Source of the DNA: Lutibacter sp.
Lineage (GTDB): Bacteria; Bacteroidota; Bacteroidia; Flavobacteriales; Flavobacteriaceae
Reading direction: 5' to 3'
Assembly: GCF_013139515.1 (NCBI RefSeq)
Contig: NZ_WTAR01000148.1
Coordinates: 1-37,251, forward strand
Length of the DNA: 37,251 bases
The notes beneath the pieces are model-generated. The model searched no databases, was not told the origin of the DNA, and was given only the letters and a program-made list of their open reading frames with translations. Positions 11,065-31,766 of the stretch are shown here, piece by piece. How positions within the stretch are numbered: position 1 is the first letter of the stretch; the number at the start of each line of letters is the position of its first letter. The position numbers were made by a program, and so were the translations under genes.

Positions 11065-14000
11065 ATGAAATCTAATCCAACCTATGAAGAGCTATTGAAA
11101 AAGGTTGAGTACTACGAAAAAGAGTTTAAAATAATTAAAAATGCCACAACAGCTGTTAAAACTGTAAGTGACAATAAAGACACTACCCAAAAGTATTTAG
11201 AAAATCTTATTGGTTATGCCAACGCACCTATTATTGTATGGAACCCTAAATTCGAAATCAAACGTTTCAATCAGGCTTTTGAACATTTAACAGGTTATAC
11301 TTCAGAAGACGTTATTGGTAAAAAATTAGATGTGTTATTTCCAAAGGAAAGCATCAAAAAAACAAAAGCAGCAATTGACAGAACTTTATCTGGTGATTTT
11401 TGGGAAACCATTGAAATTCCAATCCTTTGTAAAAATGGTGAAACCAGAATTGCACTTTGGAATTCAGCCAATATTTATGATAATGATAATAAATTACTTT
11501 CAACCATTGCGCAAGGGCAAGACATTACAAAACGTATAGTTGCAGAAAATGAAATAATTAAACAACATGAAAAATTAAATGACATTTTAGATGCCTTTCA
11601 AGATGGAGTTTACTTATGCGATGCAGATAAAAATATTGAATATTTAAATGGTGCAATGATTGACCGAATTGGTTATAATGCTGTAGGTGAAAAATGTTTT
11701 AAAGCCATTCATAATTTAGATGAGCCTTGTTCTTTTTGCTTTTATGATGAATTAAAAAAGAAAAAGAGAACTAATGTTGAATTAAAAATTTCAGAAAAAG
11801 ATTATATAGTTTCATCTGTTTTATTAGAAAATAATTCTAAAATTACTGTTTATACAGATGTTACTAAATTAAAACAAATTGAGGAAGATTTAAAAAACCA
11901 AAACAAAGAACTTACAGCAGCAAAAAAAATAGTTGAAGAAAGTGAACTAAAATTAAAAGAAGCACAGTTAGTTGCTAAAATAGGAAACTGGGATTATGAT
12001 TTAGTAAATGACACACTTACTTGGTCTGACGAAATTTATAAACTCTTAGAAATTAATCCTACTACTTATAAACCATCTTATAATTCAATGCTTCAATACA
12101 TTCACCCAGACGATAGGGAATTATTGGACTACACTTTTAATAAATCTATAACTGAAAAAACTGAATATAAATTAGAACATAGGGCATTATTAAAAAATGG
12201 GGATGTAAAATGGGTTATTGAAAGAGGAAAAAGTGAATATGATACTAATGGAAACCCAATACGATCATACGGCACATTCCAAGACATTACCGAACAAAAA
12301 AACACAGAACAACAACTTATTAAATTAAAAGAATCTGCCGAAGAAAATCAAGTCTATTTTAGAACTATTTTTGATACACAAATTGATGCAATTAGTGTAA
12401 CCAAAGTTTCGGATAGCACATTTACCTATGTAAATAAAGCTTTTATTAAATTATCTAGTTTTTCTGAAAAAGAATTAATTGGTAAAAATGCCAATAAAGT
12501 AACTCTTTTTGTGAATCCAAAAGATACTGAAACTTTAAATACTAAATTTTCTAAAAACGGGATTGTTACAAATTTTGAAACTAAAGTCCAAATAAAAACG
12601 GGTGCCATTAAAACCGTTTTATTATCACTTAGGTCGTTTAAATTTAATAAAGAAAAGTTTGTAATTACTACTACACATGATATTACACAAAATACTTTAA
12701 TTGACAAAACATTGCGGTATATTTCAGGTGGATGGAGAGATAAAGGAACTGACATTTACAATACAATTCTTCCTTTTTTAACTGAAATATTAAATATAGA
12801 ATATGCTTTTATTGATGAGTTATTACCTAATCACAAAGTAAAAACAGTTGGTTTAACACTTAAAAATGAAGTACTCCCAAATATAGAATACGATTTAAAA
12901 TATACACCTTGTGAAAATGTAATTAAAGGTAATTATTGTGTTCACCCTTCAAATATTCAGAAGAAATTTCCGAAAGATCAAATTTTAATTGATATGAATG
13001 CGGAAAGTTATGCAGGAGCACCTTTATTAAATTCTAAAGGTGAAGTTATAGGTGCTCTAGGTCTTATAGGCTTAAAATCTATTAAAAATACTGAACTTAT
13101 TAAAATTATTTTAAATTTAGTTGCACCAAGAATTGCGCATCAAATTGAGCAAGATCAAAATTCAAAAAAATTAGAAAAAAATATTAAAAGCTTAAATGAA
13201 GCGCAACAAATTGCAAAAGTTGGGAATTGGGAAATAGATGTATACCATAAAAAGATTTCTTGGTCTGATGAGATTTACAATATTTTTGAAATTTCTAGAA
13301 ATAATATACCACCATCCTTAGAATATATATTAAAACATATACATCCTGAAGATAAAGAAAGGCAACGTGTTGAGTTTGAAAAGTCTAAAAAAGAAAAAAA
13401 TGGACATTCACTCAATTATCGTATTGTATTAGAAAACGGCACTATTAAATGGCTACACTCAAAAGGGCAATACATTTATAATGATGATAATGATGGGAAT
13501 TTTATAAAATCTTATGGTACGCTACAAGACATTACTGAAACTAAACTAGCTGAACAAGAACTTATTAATACCAAAGAGAAATTTAAGGATATTGTAGAAA
13601 ACACTTCTGAATGGATTTGGGAAATTGATATAGATGGTGTTCATACGTATAGCAACCCTATTGTTGAAAATATTATTGGTTATTCTCCTAATGAAATAGT
13701 TGGAAATAGCAGTTTTGATTTCATTCATCCAGTTGATATTAAAAACATTAAGCAGAAACTCCCTAACTTAATTGCAACAAATAAAGGTTGGGAGAACTGG
13801 CAAATTAAATGGCTACATAAAAATGGCACGTATCGCTATCTTGAAAGTAATGCAGTTCCAATTTTAGATTCCAAAGGAAAATTACAAGGTTATAGAGGAG
13901 TTGACAGAGATATAACCCAACGTATAAATGCTGAAAAAGAAAATAAAAAATTATTAACTGCAGTTGAACAAAGTGCAAACTCCATCTATATTACTGATAT

Positions 14001-16020
14001 TAATGGAATTATAGAATATACAAACCCTAAATTTACTGAAGTAACTGGTTATACACCTGAAGAAGCAATTGGAAAAAATCCGAAATTTTTAAAATCTGGA
14101 AATCATCCAAAAGAATACTACACCTATTTATGGTCAACAATTACAGCAGGAAAAACTTGGAAAGGCGAATTTGAAAATAAAACCAAAAACGGAAAATTAT
14201 TTTGGGAGCAAACAACCATAACTCCAATAAAAAATGAAAAAGGAGAAATAATTAATTATTTAGCTATTAAAGAGAATATTACTGCGCTTAAAGAAAATCA
14301 AAAATTACTACTAAAACAAAACGAGGAATTAAATACTGTTAGTTTAGAATTATCTAAAAAAAACAGACTACTTTTAGAAAGTAAAAATAGGTTTGGAAAT
14401 TTATTTGAAAAAAGCCCCGTATCTCTTTGGGAAGAAGATTTATCGAAATTAATTCCCTTTTTAAATGAAAAAAACTTAAAGTCAACAAAACTTAAAGTAT
14501 ATTTAGATGAACACCCTGATTTTGTTTCTGAATGTGTTTCTAAGGTTAAAGTGTTAAATGTAAATAGCATTACATTAGATTTGTTAGGATCTGAATCTAA
14601 AGATGATTTGATGAATCATTTAAGTAAAAACTTCAACTTAAAATCAATTGAAACTTTTAAAGAAGAACTCATATCAATAGCATCAAACAATAAAGAATTT
14701 GTTAGAGAAACACAATTTGTAAAAGGCGATGGAAGTATTGTTTCTGTAATTATAAAATCGGTACTTTTAGATGATACTAAAACAGCTATTGTATCTATGG
14801 TTAATATTACCGATATTAAAAATGCAGAGCTAAAATTAAAAACGCAAAACAAAACACTTAAAAAAGCAAAAGAAAAAGCTGAAGAAAGTGATCGTTTAAA
14901 AACTGAATTTTTAAACAATATGTCACATGAAATTAGAACTCCTATGAATGGTATTTTAGGGTTTACTGAACTTTTATGCACTCCTGATACAACTTTAGAC
15001 AAAAGAAAATATTTTGGCAGTATTATTAAAAGTAGTGGTAACCAATTAATGCAAGTTATAGATGATATTTTAGAAATATCAAGACTAGGAACAAAACAGG
15101 TTACAGCCATTGAAAAAGAGCTATGTTTAAACAACGAAATGTTACACTTATTTTCAATATTTGACATTAAAGCAAAAGAAAATAAAATACCCCTGTACTT
15201 AAAAAAAGGACTTTCAGATATTGAAAGTACTATATTTACTGATGCATTAAAACTAAATAAAATTTTAAGTAATTTATTAGAAAATGCATTTAAATTTACT
15301 AATGAAGGTGATATTGAATTTGGCTATGTGCTAAACAATACAAAAAAACCACAATTAGAAATTTATGTAAAAGATACTGGGGTTGGAATAAATGAAGCCA
15401 ATCAAAAAACAATATTTGATCGATTTTCTCAAGAAGAAAAAGAACTTTCAAAGAAGTTTGGAGGTTTAGGTTTAGGCTTATCAATTGCTAAAGAAAACGC
15501 CGAATTATTAGGAGGCACCATTACCTTAAAATCTAAAAAAGGAGTTGGTTCTACATTTACAGTTATAATACCCTATAAACCAACTACTAAAATAATCTCA
15601 AAAAATTCAACAAAAGAATTAAAAACTGAAACTAAGGAAGGTACACCTATAATTTTAATTGCTGAAGATGAAGAAGTTAATTATTTATTTTTAGAAACAT
15701 TGCTCCATGATTCATTAAAAATTGATTGTACTGTTTTACATGCAAAAAATGGTAAAGAAGCTGTTAAAATTAGTAAAGAAAATCCTAAAATTAATCTTAT
15801 TCTAATGGATATTAAAATGCCATTAATGAATGGTTATGAAGCTACAAAATTAATAAAAGAATTTAATCCCAATGTACCAATAATTGCACAAACAGCTTAT
15901 TCAACATCTGAAGATATTAATAAATCTATTGCTGTTGGTTGTAATGATTTTATTTCAAAACCAATTAGTAAAAAAACGTTAAGCGATATATTAAAAAAAC
16001 ATCTTACCGTACTAAAGTAA
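11065..16020 (+). CDS. Multi-PAS/GAF hybrid sensor histidine kinase with receiver domain
   Basis: A 1651-aa soluble signalling protein with no signal peptide or membrane helix, so its input is probably cytoplasmic. Order by rough residue: N-terminal coiled coil (1-40), PAS1 (44-160), PAS2 (168-270), PAS3 (300-415), PAS4 (429-545), GAF (551-697), PAS5 (712-830), PAS6 (837-955), PAS7 (963-1075), a degenerate PAS-like region (1109-1256), coiled linker, HisKA with phospho-acceptor His1288 (MSHEIRTPMNG), HATPase (N box NLLENAFKFTNEG, DTGVGI, GGLGLGLSI), and a receiver domain (1527-1651) with acceptor Asp1582 (LMDIKMP) and a downstream KP. PAS3 and PAS5 are close relatives (IGNWDYD/VGNWEID, TWSDEIY/SWSDEIY), pointing to internal duplication. 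PAS2 has a Cys-rich loop (PCSFCF). No output regulator is encoded next to it. An FNR-like site lies upstream. Confidence 0.95.
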   Translation: MKSNPTYEELLKKVEYYEKEFKIIKNATTAVKTVSDNKDTTQKYLENLIGYANAPIIVWNPKFEIKRFNQAFEHLTGYTSEDVIGKKLDVLFPKESIKKTKAAIDRTLSGDFWETIEIPILCKNGETRIALWNSANIYDNDNKLLSTIAQGQDITKRIVAENEIIKQHEKLNDILDAFQDGVYLCDADKNIEYLNGAMIDRIGYNAVGEKCFKAIHNLDEPCSFCFYDELKKKKRTNVELKISEKDYIVSSVLLENNSKITVYTDVTKLKQIEEDLKNQNKELTAAKKIVEESELKLKEAQLVAKIGNWDYDLVNDTLTWSDEIYKLLEINPTTYKPSYNSMLQYIHPDDRELLDYTFNKSITEKTEYKLEHRALLKNGDVKWVIERGKSEYDTNGNPIRSYGTFQDITEQKNTEQQLIKLKESAEENQVYFRTIFDTQIDAISVTKVSDSTFTYVNKAFIKLSSFSEKELIGKNANKVTLFVNPKDTETLNTKFSKNGIVTNFETKVQIKTGAIKTVLLSLRSFKFNKEKFVITTTHDITQNTLIDKTLRYISGGWRDKGTDIYNTILPFLTEILNIEYAFIDELLPNHKVKTVGLTLKNEVLPNIEYDLKYTPCENVIKGNYCVHPSNIQKKFPKDQILIDMNAESYAGAPLLNSKGEVIGALGLIGLKSIKNTELIKIILNLVAPRIAHQIEQDQNSKKLEKNIKSLNEAQQIAKVGNWEIDVYHKKISWSDEIYNIFEISRNNIPPSLEYILKHIHPEDKERQRVEFEKSKKEKNGHSLNYRIVLENGTIKWLHSKGQYIYNDDNDGNFIKSYGTLQDITETKLAEQELINTKEKFKDIVENTSEWIWEIDIDGVHTYSNPIVENIIGYSPNEIVGNSSFDFIHPVDIKNIKQKLPNLIATNKGWENWQIKWLHKNGTYRYLESNAVPILDSKGKLQGYRGVDRDITQRINAEKENKKLLTAVEQSANSIYITDINGIIEYTNPKFTEVTGYTPEEAIGKNPKFLKSGNHPKEYYTYLWSTITAGKTWKGEFENKTKNGKLFWEQTTITPIKNEKGEIINYLAIKENITALKENQKLLLKQNEELNTVSLELSKKNRLLLESKNRFGNLFEKSPVSLWEEDLSKLIPFLNEKNLKSTKLKVYLDEHPDFVSECVSKVKVLNVNSITLDLLGSESKDDLMNHLSKNFNLKSIETFKEELISIASNNKEFVRETQFVKGDGSIVSVIIKSVLLDDTKTAIVSMVNITDIKNAELKLKTQNKTLKKAKEKAEESDRLKTEFLNNMSHEIRTPMNGILGFTELLCTPDTTLDKRKYFGSIIKSSGNQLMQVIDDILEISRLGTKQVTAIEKELCLNNEMLHLFSIFDIKAKENKIPLYLKKGLSDIESTIFTDALKLNKILSNLLENAFKFTNEGDIEFGYVLNNTKKPQLEIYVKDTGVGINEANQKTIFDRFSQEEKELSKKFGGLGLGLSIAKENAELLGGTITLKSKKGVGSTFTVIIPYKPTTKIISKNSTKELKTETKEGTPIILIAEDEEVNYLFLETLLHDSLKIDCTVLHAKNGKEAVKISKENPKINLILMDIKMPLMNGYEATKLIKEFNPNVPIIAQTAYSTSEDINKSIAVGCNDFISKPISKKTLSDILKKHLTVLK

Positions 16021-27423: not shown

Positions 27424-28500
27424 TTACTTTACGTTGTGCTGTATATTAATAGACTCTACGTGAATAGCTCTAAATATTTCTTCCACAAATTCTTTACTCA
27501 ACCCTTTTGCAACGCCTAATTCAACCATTTTTGAAATAATATCAGACCATCTTCCACTTTGTAAAATAGCTACATTTTCACTATGCTTTAATTTTCCAAT
27601 TTCAGCAGCAATACCCATTCTATCAGCTAGCACATCAATAATATTATTATCAATTAAATCTAGTTCTTTTCTGTGCATATTTAATTTACGCTGAAATTCA
27701 ACCTCCGTACTACTTTCTTTACGAATTCTTAAATCTGCCGTAATTTGTGCTAATCGTGCTGGTGTAATTTGCTGTGCAGCATCACTCCAAGCCTTATCTG
27801 GATCAATATGAGTTTCAATCATAAATCCATCATAATTTAAATCTAATGCTGTTTGAGATACATCTAAAATAGTGTCTCTACGACCACAAATATGTGAAGG
27901 ATCTAAAATTAAAGGTAAATTTGGAAATTCTTTTTTTAATTCAATCGCTAAGTGCCATTTTGGTTTGTTACGGTAATGTAATGAGTTATATGTTGAAAAC
28001 CCTCTATGAATTGCACCTAACTGAGTAATTCCTGCAGTTTTAAAACGCTCTACAGCACCTAACCATAAAGGTAAGTCTGGGTTTACAGGGTTTTTTACCA
28101 ATACTGGTATATCAACACCTTTTAAAGCATCAGCAATTTCTTGTACAACAAACGGGTTTACAGTCGTTCGTGCACCAATCCATAAAATATCAATGTCATG
28201 CTTTAAAGCTAATTCTACGTGGTTTGCGTTTCCAACTTCAGTAGTCACTAACATTCCTGTTTCTTCCTTCACTTTTTGTAACCAAGGTAATCCTAAAGCA
28301 CCAACACCTTCAAATCCTCCCGGACGTGTTCTAGGTTTCCAAATACCTGCTCTAAACACATTTGTATCTGTGTTTTTAAGTTCATGAGCTGTTTTTAAAA
28401 CCTGCTCTTCCGTTTCGGCACTACAAGGTCCTGCAATTACAATTGGGTGATCTAAACCCATAGCATCTAACCACTGTCTGTTTTCTTTTTTAATTTCCAT
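27424..28500 (-). CDS. Bifunctional DAHP synthase / chorismate mutase
   Basis: Fusion enzyme at the entry and the branch point of aromatic synthesis. The N-terminal part (about 1-262) is a type I-beta 3-deoxy-7-phosphoheptulonate synthase (AGPCSAE, FRAGIWKPRTRPGGFEG, LVKNPVNPDLPLWLGA, DPSHICGRRD), condensing PEP and erythrose 4-phosphate. The C-terminal part (about 265-358) is an AroQ-type all-helical chorismate mutase (LDLIDNNIIDVLADRMGIAAEIGKLK), converting chorismate to prephenate, the substrate of the two upstream genes. At 358 aa it matches the Bacteroidota fusion. It is the last gene of the aromatic run, 248 bp after tyrA, a gap that holds a dyad repeat and no clear promoter. Confidence 0.95.
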   Translation of the reverse strand: MEIKKENRQWLDAMGLDHPIVIAGPCSAETEEQVLKTAHELKNTDTNVFRAGIWKPRTRPGGFEGVGALGLPWLQKVKEETGMLVTTEVGNANHVELALKHDIDILWIGARTTVNPFVVQEIADALKGVDIPVLVKNPVNPDLPLWLGAVERFKTAGITQLGAIHRGFSTYNSLHYRNKPKWHLAIELKKEFPNLPLILDPSHICGRRDTILDVSQTALDLNYDGFMIETHIDPDKAWSDAAQQITPARLAQITADLRIRKESSTEVEFQRKLNMHRKELDLIDNNIIDVLADRMGIAAEIGKLKHSENVAILQSGRWSDIISKMVELGVAKGLSKEFVEEIFRAIHVESINIQHNVK

Positions 28501-28748: not shown

Positions 28749-29597
28749 CTATTTTATTCCATTTAAAATTGACTTAATATAATTTGTGTCGTTCATTGTT
28801 TCTTTTAATGTTTCACTATTATCAGTGACAATCATTTCTCTAAATTCGTTTAAATTTTTAATATATTCATCTAACGAACGTATAATGTTTTCTTTATTCT
28901 GAAGAAAAATAGGTGCCCAAGTAGTTGCTGAACTTTTTGCTAAACGCACTGTTGAAGCAAAACCTGTGCTTGCCATGTCAAAAATATGTTGTTCATTTTT
29001 TTCAATACTTAAAACCGTTTTCCCCAACATAAATGAACTTACATGAGATAAATGTGAAACATACGCAATATGCCTGTCATGTTCCTCCGGACTCATCATT
29101 TTAATTCGCATATTTAATTTTTTGAATATACTTAATGCTTTGTCCAAAATTTTCCAATCCGTTTTATCAACTTCACATAAAATATTTACCTTTTCATCAA
29201 ATAGGTTTAAAATTGCAGCTTCAGGTCCTGAAAACTCAGTTCCAGCTAAAGGATGCGCAGCTACATAATTTTTACGATTTGAATGTGAAGCAATTGCTTT
29301 ACAAATTTCATTTTTTACTGAACCCACATCAAAAACTAAAGTGTTATCTGAAACTACATCCAATACTTGCTTTGCAACTTTCGGAATCACATCAACAGGA
29401 ACGGCAATTATTACAACTGAAGCATCTGCTATTTCAGAAAACTCAATTTCAACATCAATTACACCAAGCTCCAACGCTTTTTGTATATGAGCTTTATTTT
29501 GATCTACACCATATACTTTATAGCCGTTTCGCTTCTTTAAATCTAACGCTAAAGAACCTCCTATTAAACCTAAACCAATCACCACTAACTTTTCCAT
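28749..29597 (-). CDS. tyrA: Prephenate dehydrogenase
   Basis: Converts prephenate to 4-hydroxyphenylpyruvate with NAD(P), the committed step to tyrosine. It is 282 aa, the size of the mono-functional enzyme. The Rossmann motif VVIGLGLIGGSLALDLKKR opens the protein. VGSVKNEIC, YVAAHPLAGTEFSGPEAA and HDRHIAYVSHLSHVSSFML are the family's substrate-binding segments with the catalytic His. ATGFASTVRLAKSSATTWAPIF leads into the C-terminal helical dimer domain. It begins 3 bp after the aminotransferase stop. Confidence 0.96.
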   Translation of the reverse strand: MEKLVVIGLGLIGGSLALDLKKRNGYKVYGVDQNKAHIQKALELGVIDVEIEFSEIADASVVIIAVPVDVIPKVAKQVLDVVSDNTLVFDVGSVKNEICKAIASHSNRKNYVAAHPLAGTEFSGPEAAILNLFDEKVNILCEVDKTDWKILDKALSIFKKLNMRIKMMSPEEHDRHIAYVSHLSHVSSFMLGKTVLSIEKNEQHIFDMASTGFASTVRLAKSSATTWAPIFLQNKENIIRSLDEYIKNLNEFREMIVTDNSETLKETMNDTNYIKSILNGIK

Positions 29598-29600
29598 ATG

Positions 29601-30758
29601 CTAACTCTTTACGGTTATTAATCTACTTAATACTTCTTCTAAAATTGTTGAGGAAACACATAATGATGCTCTAATATACCCTTCTCCATTTGAACCAAAA
29701 ACAGTTCCTGGGGTAATAAATACATCCTTTTCATACAATAAAGCATCTGTAAATTCTTCTGATTTTAAGCCTTCAGGTAATTTTGCCCAAACAAATAAGC
29801 CTCCAATTGCAGTATCATACGTACATTTTAAAGCATCAAATATTTCCCAAACTATTGTTCTTCTTTTTTTATAAATTTCATCTTGTGAATCAAACCAACT
29901 GGTTGATAATTTTAGCGCTTCAACGGCTCCTTTTTGAATTCCTAAAAACATACCAGAATCCATATTACTTTTTACTTTTAATATGGTATTTATAATTTCA
30001 GCATCACCAACAACCATTCCTACTCGCCAACCTGCCATATTAAATGTTTTACTCAACGAATTTAACTCAATAGCTACTTCTTTTGCACCTTCAACAGCTA
30101 AAATACTTTGCGGATTGTTATTCAATATAAAACTATACGGATTGTCATTTACAAGTAGTATGTGATGCTTTTTTGCAAAGGCTACTAATTGCTCAAAATC
30201 ACTTTTTGAAGCTACTGCTCCTGTTGGCATATGCGGATAATTCACCCACATAATTTTTACTTTAGATAAATCTTCTTTTTCTAATTCTTCAAAATTTGGT
30301 AACCAATTCTGTTGCTGTGTTAAATTATAAAATACAGGTTCAGCCTCTACTAATTTAGTGACTGATGTGTATGTTGGATACCCAGGATTTGGAATTAACA
30401 CTTTATCGCCTTTATTTAAAAAAGCCAAAGAAATATGCATAATTCCTTCCTTTGAACCCATTAATGGTAAAATTTCTGAAGTAGCATCTAACGCTACATC
30501 ATAATTGTTTTTATAAAAATTGCTAATTTCAGAACGCAACTCAGGAATGCCCTGGTAACTTTGGTATTTATGAGCAATCTCTAATTGCATGGTGTCTTTT
30601 AATGCTTCAATCACATTTAAAGGCGGCTGCAAATCTGGACTCCCAATCGCAATATTAATTACAGGTTTTCCTTTAGCCATCAAGCCAGCTACTTCCCTCA
30701 ATTTTTTTGAGAAATAGTATTCTTCCACATTATGTAATCTATCTGCTTTTTGTATCAT
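29601..30758 (-). CDS. PLP-dependent class I aminotransferase (probable aromatic aminotransferase)
   Basis: A 385-aa fold-type I aminotransferase. SLSKTFNMAGWRVG contains the Schiff-base Lys and the following Arg. INIAIGSPDLQPP, PLMGSKEGIMH, PNPGYPTY and the C-terminal ITPGTVFGSNGEGYIRASLC (carboxylate-binding Arg) are also in place. One oddity is WVNYPHMPTGAVA, where the common family motif is NYPxNPTG, with His in place of Asn. Its position between prephenate dehydratase and dehydrogenase makes phenylpyruvate and 4-hydroxyphenylpyruvate the likely substrates. Its ATG overlaps the pheA stop codon by one base (TAATG), indicating translational coupling. Confidence 0.92.
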   Translation of the reverse strand: MIQKADRLHNVEEYYFSKKLREVAGLMAKGKPVINIAIGSPDLQPPLNVIEALKDTMQLEIAHKYQSYQGIPELRSEISNFYKNNYDVALDATSEILPLMGSKEGIMHISLAFLNKGDKVLIPNPGYPTYTSVTKLVEAEPVFYNLTQQQNWLPNFEELEKEDLSKVKIMWVNYPHMPTGAVASKSDFEQLVAFAKKHHILLVNDNPYSFILNNNPQSILAVEGAKEVAIELNSLSKTFNMAGWRVGMVVGDAEIINTILKVKSNMDSGMFLGIQKGAVEALKLSTSWFDSQDEIYKKRRTIVWEIFDALKCTYDTAIGGLFVWAKLPEGLKSEEFTDALLYEKDVFITPGTVFGSNGEGYIRASLCVSSTILEEVLSRLITVKS

Positions 30759-31576
30759 TATCTTTTTCCTTTATTGTATTCACCTAGAATTTTCAAGGTC
30801 TCAACTTTTCCTTTAATTTCATTGATAGCATCATAATAATCAGCATAACTATCAAACGTAAAATCTGCAAAAAAGGCATATTTCCATGGCGTTTCAATTA
30901 CTGGCATCGATTGTATTTTTGAAAGATTTAATTGATGTTTGGCTAATATTGTTAAAATTTCGGCTAAACTTCCCGCATCATGTCCTGTGATAAATTTTAT
31001 GGAAGCTTTATTTGCAGAAACACTATTTTTTGTTGATGAATTTGTTAAAATAAAAAATCGTGTAGCATTTTCTTTTATCGTTTGAATTTCAGAAGCTAAA
31101 ATTTCTAAACCGTAGGTTTTAGCTGCCAAATCACTCGCTATAGCACCAACTCCTTCCAATTTTTTTTCTTGAATTCTTTGAGCTACAACAGCAGTATCTT
31201 TATCTTCAATTAATTTAATATGTGGGTATTGTTTAAAATATTTATGACATTGCAACAATGCCATTGGATGAGAATACACTTCTTTAATATTGTCTATATT
31301 TTGACCTTTTAAACCCATTAAATGATGATGAATTGGTAAGTGATGCTCTCCACAAATTGTTAAGTGATGTTCATCAATTAACGCGTAATTTGGTAAAATT
31401 GCACCAGCTATTGAATTTTCAATAGCCATAATAACAACCTCAGCAGTTTTATTGTGTAATAAATCTGGCATTTCACTAAATGATAAGCATTCTAACAATT
31501 CAATATTTTGACCAAAATATTGTTCAGCTACTATGTGGTGAAACGATCCTTTTATTCCTTGTATTGCTACTTTCAT
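30758..31576 (-). CDS. pheA: Prephenate dehydratase with ACT domain
   Basis: Converts prephenate to phenylpyruvate, the committed step to phenylalanine. It is a 272-aa stand-alone dehydratase without a mutase domain, which is supplied by the last gene of the run. Seen: the N-terminal IQGIKGSFHHIVAEQYF, the AIENSIAGAILPNYALI loop, the catalytic Thr-Arg-Phe in ENATRFFIL, and a C-terminal ACT domain (about 190-268, FITGHDAGSLAEILTILAKHQLNLSKIQSMP) that normally binds Phe for feedback. It is the first gene of the aromatic operon and is preceded by an attenuator-like leader with a Phe/Tyr-rich leader ORF. Confidence 0.96.
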   Translation of the reverse strand: MKVAIQGIKGSFHHIVAEQYFGQNIELLECLSFSEMPDLLHNKTAEVVIMAIENSIAGAILPNYALIDEHHLTICGEHHLPIHHHLMGLKGQNIDNIKEVYSHPMALLQCHKYFKQYPHIKLIEDKDTAVVAQRIQEKKLEGVGAIASDLAAKTYGLEILASEIQTIKENATRFFILTNSSTKNSVSANKASIKFITGHDAGSLAEILTILAKHQLNLSKIQSMPVIETPWKYAFFADFTFDSYADYYDAINEIKGKVETLKILGEYNKGKR

Positions 31577-31591
31577 TTTTACTTTTTAACC

Positions 31592-31622
31592 AAAAAAAAG
31601 TCCCGAAATATTTCGAGACTTT
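31592..31622 (-). terminator. Attenuator terminator of the aromatic operon leader
   Basis: On the minus strand AAAGTCTCGAA (31622-31612), loop ATAT, TTCGGGACTTT (31607-31597), followed by T to 31592 (eight T in a row counting the stem end). The single non-Watson-Crick pair is U.G on this strand but C.A on the other, so the hairpin is tuned for leftward transcripts. It ends 15 nt before the pheA ATG, upstream of all operon genes. Confidence 0.88.
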
Positions 31623-31650
31623 ATTATTTATTTCATTTTATAAACACATA

Positions 31651-31719
31651 CTAAGCCTCTCTTTTATTGCTAAAATAAAAGTAAAAATAAAAGCTATTCC
31701 AAGTGTTTTTAATGCTCAT
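31651..31719 (-). CDS. Leader peptide of the aromatic operon (Phe/Tyr-rich)
   Basis: A 22-codon ORF from ATG 31719 to TAG 31653-31651. It begins MSIKNTWNS and continues FYFYFYF (codons TTT TAT TTT TAC TTT TAT TTT), then a short hydrophilic tail SNKREA. Seven consecutive aromatic codons plus one Trp in so short an ORF is the signature of attenuation leader peptides. The promoter -7 box is 17 bp upstream and the terminator 28 bp downstream. The ORF's last codons GAG GCT T(AG) are complementary to the terminator's 5' arm. Its expected role is to stall a ribosome when Phe-tRNA or Tyr-tRNA is scarce; the peptide itself probably has no function. No expression evidence. Confidence 0.85.
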   Translation of the reverse strand: MSIKNTWNSFYFYFYFSNKREA

Positions 31720-31736
31720 AATCAGTAATTAGAAGA

Positions 31737-31766
31737 CAAATCTATACATTAATTTTAAAAAAACAA
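31737..31766 (-). promoter_or_regulatory. Promoter of the aromatic operon leader
   Basis: On the minus strand TTG (31766-31764), 19 nt, TAGATTTG (31744-31737): exact match to the Bacteroidota sigma-A consensus TTG-N19-TAnnTTTG. A start site about 6-8 nt beyond places it near 31730, just upstream of the leader ORF ATG at 31719. Confidence 0.8.

Follow-up and report, generated by a model that had tools for sequence, protein, structure and literature searches.

A putative leader-peptide attenuator with mixed Phe and Tyr codons upstream of the pheA operon in Lutibacter and much of the class Bacteroidia

In this study, we describe an element upstream of the pheA operon of Lutibacter sp. that, judging from comparative sequence analysis, in all likelihood acts as a ribosome-mediated transcription attenuator, sensing charged tRNA-Phe and charged tRNA-Tyr for an operon that makes both amino acids. 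It is located in a window of 37,251 nucleotides (contig NZ_WTAR01000148.1, assembly GCF_013139515.1), by which we mean the whole stretch of DNA that was analysed. The parts of the element, their conservation, the covariation of two of its helices (1:2 and 2:3) between genomes and the invariable presence of Phe codons together with Tyr codons in the leader were observed directly.

All parts of the element are encoded on the minus strand. A promoter-like element (31737–31766), presumably of the Bacteroidetes type, consists of TTG (31766–31764), a spacer of 19 nt and TAGATTTG (31744–31737). It is followed by a leader peptide ORF of 22 codons (31651–31719; ATG at 31719, stop codon TAG ending at 31651) encoding MSIKNTWNSFYFYFYFSNKREA, in which a Trp codon (31701–31699) precedes a run of seven consecutive Phe/Tyr control codons (FYFYFYF, 31672–31692). 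Between the leader and the first gene lies an intrinsic terminator hairpin (regions 3 and 4, 31597–31622), which was recognized by reading, by RNAfold and in the genus alignment. Its 11-bp stem (5′ arm 31622–31612, 3′ arm 31607–31597, −12.2 kcal/mol) passes into a U-run of eight T (31592–31599), the first three of which are shared with the stem, and 15 nt separate the end of the U-run from the pheA start codon (ATG at 31576). The operon comprises pheA (prephenate dehydratase, 30758–31576; PF00800, 190.5 bits), a class I/II aminotransferase (29601–30758; PF00155, 208 bits), tyrA (prephenate dehydrogenase, 28749–29597; NF006307, 365.1 bits vs. a cut-off of 295) and a DAHP synthase fused to chorismate mutase (27424–28500; PF00793 and PF01817). 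A short ORF with clustered end-product codons before a biosynthetic operon and an intrinsic terminator that separates this ORF from the first gene are both features by which leader-peptide attenuators are recognized. A first-pass annotation, made from the letters of the window alone, had proposed the promoter, the leader with its F/Y run and Trp codon, and the terminator; all of them were read at the coordinates it gave, and its gene order (pheA–aminotransferase–tyrA–DAHP synthase/chorismate mutase) was borne out by the domain matches. Elsewhere in the window, we observed a match to the DUF805b RNA (Rfam RF02914; 18059–18091, minus strand; 42.5 bits vs. a gathering score of 35.6) and a hybrid histidine kinase of 1651 aa with several PAS domains and a receiver domain (11065–16020, plus strand).

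The proposed switch would consist of three mutually exclusive hairpins, designated 1:2, 2:3 and 3:4. Beside the terminator, RNAfold predicted the pairings AAACAC–GTGTTT, AGCTTTT–GAGGCTT and CTTTTATT–AATAAAAG for the window leader. The 5′ arm of the 1:2 protector helix (region 1, AAACAC, 31703–31708; RNAfold) lies before the control codons, and its 3′ arm (GTGTTT, 31642–31647; RNAfold and genus counts) directly follows the stop codon. A small hairpin, in which control codons (CTTTTATT) pair with AATAAAAG (31661–31681; RNAfold), is contained within the 1:2 structure. The antiterminator pairs region 2, GAGGCTT (31659–31653, the last leader codons), with AAGTCTC (31621–31615), which lies within the terminator 5′ arm; this complementarity over 7 bp with one G·U, likewise noticed by the first-pass annotation, was confirmed by direct reading. 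Because the antiterminator arm lies within the 1:2 structure, the protector helix excludes the antiterminator. The antiterminator in turn shares the terminator 5′ arm and is mutually exclusive with the terminator, as supported by covariation between genomes and by none within the genus. With the 1:2 protector helix added, the device thus has all three hairpins. Overall, the window leader folds at −27.2 kcal/mol vs. −19.2 kcal/mol for shuffles (z −2.5; 4/200 shuffles as good).

If both Phe and Tyr were ample, the ribosome would reach the stop codon and cover region 2, 3:4 would form and the operon would be off. If either amino acid were short, the ribosome would stall in the seven F/Y codons and block region 1; region 2 (GAGGCTT and following) would then form 2:3 with the 5′ arm of the terminator, and transcription would enter pheA. 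An untranslated leader would form 1:2, with termination at 3:4 as the consequence. We infer here that the ORF is translated, that ribosomes stall on it, that transcription terminates and that the operon responds to starvation.

The folding energies in the window (antiterminator −10.2, 1:2 stretch −14.4 kcal/mol) include one point that we count against this reading, namely that the antiterminator is weaker than the terminator. When region 1 was left out and both terminator arms were present, RNAfold still yielded the terminator for the window, and antitermination must therefore depend on the order of transcription; when a ribosome was positioned within the run before synthesis of the terminator 3′ arm, the antiterminator folded. 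The enteric attenuator model likewise needs an order of events during transcription. Across the 186 loci described below, median energies were −17.8 kcal/mol for 1:2, −13.9 kcal/mol for 2:3 and −12.9 kcal/mol for 3:4, the terminator being stabler than the antiterminator in 69/186. Region 1 is found at or just before the first control codon, and the antiterminator arm starts at a median of 11 nt (5th–95th percentile 8–13) after the last F/Y codon. This distance is similar to the downstream reach of the ribosome of about 12 nt (PMC4833913), so that a ribosome stalled at most positions of the run would leave the arm free; one at the last F/Y codon may contact the first bases of the arm. Under an assumed footprint, the arm is inside the region covered by a ribosome at the stop codon in 174/186 loci.

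In order to define a leader, a threshold of at least five F/Y in seven codons within 400 nt upstream of pheA was used, with dinucleotide shuffles as control. At this threshold (5/7), a leader was present in 35/35 loci of the genus, 122/127 of other genera of the family, 5/9 of other families of the order and 18/27 of other orders of the class, compared to shuffle means of 2.2, 4.8, 0.2 and 0.2, respectively. At 6/7, the counts were 35/35, 73/127, 5/9 and 17/27 (shuffles 0.0–0.2 per group), and 34/35 genus and 47/127 other family loci reached 7/7 (shuffles 0.0 in each). An aromatic-run ORF preceded pheA in 30/30 genus loci of a first set and in 35/35 once five more were added. The family sample comprised 127 of 176 non-genus genomes with a pheA match, one for each genus and mostly higher-scoring, 13 lower-scoring ones being included; the order sample contained 9/10 genomes from other families with a pheA match (the tenth, G059, was left out because stop codons interrupt its match), and the class sample all 27/27 genomes of other orders with a pheA match. 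Among the carriers are Lutibacter oceani, L. litoralis, L. oricola, Polaribacter irgensii 23-P and Arenibacter aquaticus. A leader together with a hairpin that runs into four or more T was found in 186/198 loci (raw count), with medians of −13.4 kcal/mol for the hairpin and 9 for the T-run. Loss of the leader with a retained terminator in close relatives, which the first-pass annotation had named as evidence against an attenuator, was looked for as well, and 35/35 genus loci keep both. Within the 80 nt that precede the leader ATG, the exact string TA..TTTG occurred for 34/35 genus, 21/126 other family, 3/6 order and 11/19 class leaders, the chance rate in mononucleotide shuffles being 0.08; its scarcity in the family counts against the attenuator reading.

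Five family loci fell below 5/7: three showed a weaker run (4/7), in one (L261) the leader is located further upstream, and one (L117) had no F/Y leader within 600 nt upstream of pheA. Instead of a leader, the 300 nt upstream of pheA in L117 contain repeated stretches with CCCGC–GCGGG hairpins. No leader at 5/7 was detected in 9/27 genomes of other orders and in 4/9 order loci, which also speaks against the attenuator reading. In a further search, 14 of 53 matching loci were checked; a leader was present in 10/10 Flavobacteriaceae, and none was found in the 4/4 Desulfovibrio/Bilophila loci among them.

Phe and Tyr codons both occur in the 7-codon core of 186/186 leaders with a detected terminator, although the search scored F or Y and the presence of both was no requirement. 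This constancy bears on an alternative in which only stalling at Phe (or only at Tyr) counts and the remaining codons play no part, as might be suspected from enteric pheL, which senses Phe alone, and from the excess of Phe over Tyr codons (means of 5.5 vs. 3.6 per family leader). The genes downstream point in the same direction as the mixed core: among 20 loci followed downstream of pheA, 15 were leader-bearing, and 13/15 of these showed a tyrA match in the stretch read, with a weak match (27%) in L291 and none in the stretch read in L289. We consider such a single-amino-acid attenuator unlikely. The other five loci came from genomes without a detected leader, of which G047 and G349 keep pheA with tyrA (pheA-tyrA operon; loci L283 and L290), G040 and G053 have a distant sole pheA match (28–30% identity) and G258 has pheA and DAHP synthase. 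Sensing of Trp through the leader Trp codon was rejected as well, because many leaders have no Trp (present in 29/35 genus, 85/126 family, 1/6 order and 4/19 class leaders) and because TGG falls within the 1:2 helix in several genera.

The reading as a dual Phe/Tyr attenuator was further assessed by covariation, at the genus level in an alignment of 35 rows with column shuffles and slid helix versions as controls. For the 1:2 helix (9-bp version), 88.4% of cells were paired vs. 33–53% in slid versions, and the covariation score of 0.123 exceeded that of column shuffles (0.077; 0/500 as high) and slid versions (≤ 0.065); double-change cells numbered 8, compared to 2.6 in shuffles and up to 9 in slid versions. 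The terminator was paired in 98.6% of cells, with a score of 0.265 vs. 0.211 for shuffles and ≤ 0.107 for slid versions, and with 7 double-change cells compared to up to 9 in slid versions. In the small hairpin CTTTTATT/AATAAAAG, all 8 pairs were standard in 35/35 rows, and changes were one-sided only. The antiterminator (2:3) was paired in 98.8% of cells; its 35 rows held 0 double changes, and its covariation score was no better than that of shuffles. Taken on its own, the evidence from the genus is suggestive and not decisive. Since the genus alone gave no double changes, the claim of 2:3 covariation rests on the other genera.

Between genomes, the duplex energy of each locus' own pair of arms was compared with that of pairs drawn from different genomes, using 2000 permutations. 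The set of 152 loci represents 148 genera, with four pairs of loci sharing a genus; left out were the 12/198 loci without a detected leader and terminator (1 family, 3 order, 8 class) and, in order to avoid near-copies, 34/35 genus loci. For 2:3, the own mean was −12.23 vs. −9.09 (sd 0.19) for permuted pairs, none of 2000 permutations was as good, and in 145/152 loci the own duplex surpassed the average of the foreign ones. The 1:2 helix behaved similarly (−12.42 vs. −9.33; 0/2000 as good; own better in 137/152). In the controls, which paired the codons before the run with the terminator arm or with post-terminator sequence, 799 and 394 of 2000 permutations were as good, respectively. Restricting the test to the family (n = 127) again gave 0/2000 for both helices, with controls at 125 and 355 of 2000, the first of these being slightly ahead of most permutations. 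For the loci from beyond the family (n = 25), 2:3 reached −14.14 vs. −9.72 and 1:2 −12.46 vs. −9.29 (0/2000 each), with controls at 1657 and 1543 of 2000.

The arms of leader and terminator were replaced wholesale with their complementarity kept: GAGGCTT/AAGTCTC in Lutibacter corresponds to CGGGACT/AGTCCCG in genera with Arenibacter-like leaders, to AGCGGGA/TCCCGCT and GAGCGGTC/GACCGCTC in other families and to GGAGGCGGGA/TCCCGCCTCC in another order. A point against the attenuator reading is that the best contiguous 2:3 match was just 5–6 bp in 9/19 class loci. In 8 genus loci, a contiguous-helix search paired ACTTTTATT with AATAAAGGT or AATAAGGGT, which is evidently wrong; the covariation statistics rest on the energy-based tests and not on this search. 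These results support the stalling and antiterminator logic put forward in the first-pass annotation, with a leader conserved over much of the class and a covarying 2:3 helix; its scheme was incomplete in lacking the 1:2 helix, which covaries as well.

The same data bear on the idea of an arrest peptide, in which the nascent chain rather than a lack of charged tRNA would stop the ribosome. A strongly conserved run of bulky aromatic residues could be read in this way. However, residues other than F/Y vary between genera in step with the RNA pairing, and the Trp residue comes and goes as given above. Since the last leader codons encode the antiterminator arm, the C-terminus of the peptide tracks the terminator sequence (REA, NETLYV, GTGLL, SGKLYV), which argues for the RNA and not the peptide as the acting part and leaves an arrest peptide very improbable.

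Translational control, with hairpins gating the access of ribosomes to the pheA start codon, would fit the window, where the U-run lies so close to the pheA ATG that one ribosome could cover both. In five genus loci (L008, L014, L016, L019 and L027), however, the hairpin and U-run are kept 100–192 nt from pheA. Furthermore, Bacteroidia ribosomes fail to recognize Shine-Dalgarno sequences (PMC9976891), so that hiding such a sequence would have little effect, and we give this explanation only a slim chance. Seven genus loci (the five above, L017 and L031) carry one to two copies of a repeat of about 90 nt between terminator and pheA, which ends near ATGCG...GCATTCC.GAGGAC and looks like a small interspersed element sparing the attenuator. 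That a short ORF arose by chance before an ordinary terminator or other structured element can practically be dismissed: the region is AT-rich and shuffles gave weak (4/7) F/Y ORFs in 9.0/35 genus and 22.8/127 family loci, but the 6/7 counts far exceed their shuffles and the covariation tests contradict it.

Similar short ORFs were observed upstream of other amino acid biosynthesis genes. His-run ORFs precede hisG in 20/20 loci scanned (L213–L232; raw count), including that of the Lutibacter sp. genome itself (L216 on contig C154; MKFIQLHRHHSHTSTQARG), and probably represent His leader-peptide attenuators. Upstream of trpE, ORFs with two or three Trp codons (WW/WWW; for example MNLKNTNTNWWWNSLNL) were found in 8/9 loci of relatives (L293, L294, L296–L301; raw count) and are probable Trp attenuators; the incomplete assembly of Lutibacter sp. 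yielded no higher-scoring trpE. For ilvD, Ile/Leu/Val-rich short ORFs such as MNQVILNIVAIRVSVIISQGG occurred in 5/7 loci scanned (L305, L307–L309, L311), and none was seen upstream of ilvD in the Lutibacter sp. genome (L312). As Ile, Leu and Val residues are common, this evidence is weaker, and the ORFs may be branched-chain leaders or have a chance origin.

Given these ORFs, the pheA device looks like one of a set. On balance, we favor a broader reading in which the attenuator is ancestral to much of the class Bacteroidia, acts on two aminoacyl-tRNAs as an OR gate that opens the operon when either Phe or Tyr is short, and belongs to a set of leader-peptide attenuators (F/Y-pheA, His-hisG, Trp-trpE and perhaps Ile/Leu/Val-ilvD). 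If such a set exists, the leading ribosome would track RNA polymerase closely enough to govern termination in Bacteroidota, despite the lack of Shine-Dalgarno pairing. A covarying set across much of Bacteroidia would carry a textbook mechanism into a major phylum, and its leaders would offer a native test of transcription-translation coupling there. The pheA leader would be a natural sensor for Phe and Tyr, for which the covariation yields single-base predictions for a reporter assay.

The first-pass annotation knew of no described example in Bacteroidota; earlier, less detailed reports do exist. A putative attenuator upstream of pheA > hisHb > aroAIb-aroQ > tyrA in Bacteroides thetaiotaomicron, drawn from a database of putative attenuators, was listed in 2005 (PMC1173090, Table 7). 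It is a prediction for the same operon type in the same phylum, and the paper names no leader peptide in its main text, from which the word "leader" is absent. In 2021, pheA of Flavobacterium psychrophilum was reported to have a structured 5′ element that is shared by further Flavobacteriaceae genera and lacks an Rfam match, and strong clues for leader-peptide attenuation of amino-acid operons were described alongside (PMC9723704, section 19). The passages concerned contain neither a leader sequence nor codons, helices or covariation, and they do not go beyond the family; this element is very probably the same as the window attenuator. Short ORFs reminiscent of leader peptides were also noted in B. 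thetaiotaomicron (PMC7366714), and in 2010 such systems were considered not to have been shown outside Proteobacteria and Actinobacteria before the authors' own Firmicutes case (PMC2965389). Among the matches listed from the open-licence literature, no description of a combined Phe/Tyr leader peptide was found. The element described here is a putative leader-peptide attenuator with dual Phe/Tyr codons that is distinct by score from the Rfam Phe_leader and extends over much of Bacteroidia. A comparative survey by Lopatovskaya and others, reportedly of 2010, may also bear on such attenuators.

The Rfam family Phe_leader (RF01859), which covers enteric pheL-pheA, is defined by leader Phe codons. 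The window leader contains such codons, with Tyr codons besides, and matches RF01859 over model positions 1–125 of 125 with 24.6 bits (E 0.059); the unrelated family MicC scores nearly equally on the same leader (23.4 bits). Because the gathering score of 55 bits is not reached, an assignment to Phe_leader was rejected. Enteric pheL-pheA shares with our element a Phe-rich leader, the logic of protector, antiterminator and terminator and the control of pheA. In contrast, the leaders detected here always mix in Tyr codons, the 5′ arm of 1:2 in the window lies mostly before the control codons, and the window operon also includes tyrA and DAHP synthase. With Escherichia coli trpL-trp it has in common the 1:2, 2:3 and 3:4 hairpins and the position of the ribosome as sensor, whereas codons, operon and sequence are different and the lineage starts translation without Shine-Dalgarno pairing. 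As for the combination of amino acids, the ilvGMEDA and thrABC leaders likewise sense more than one amino acid with a single leader.
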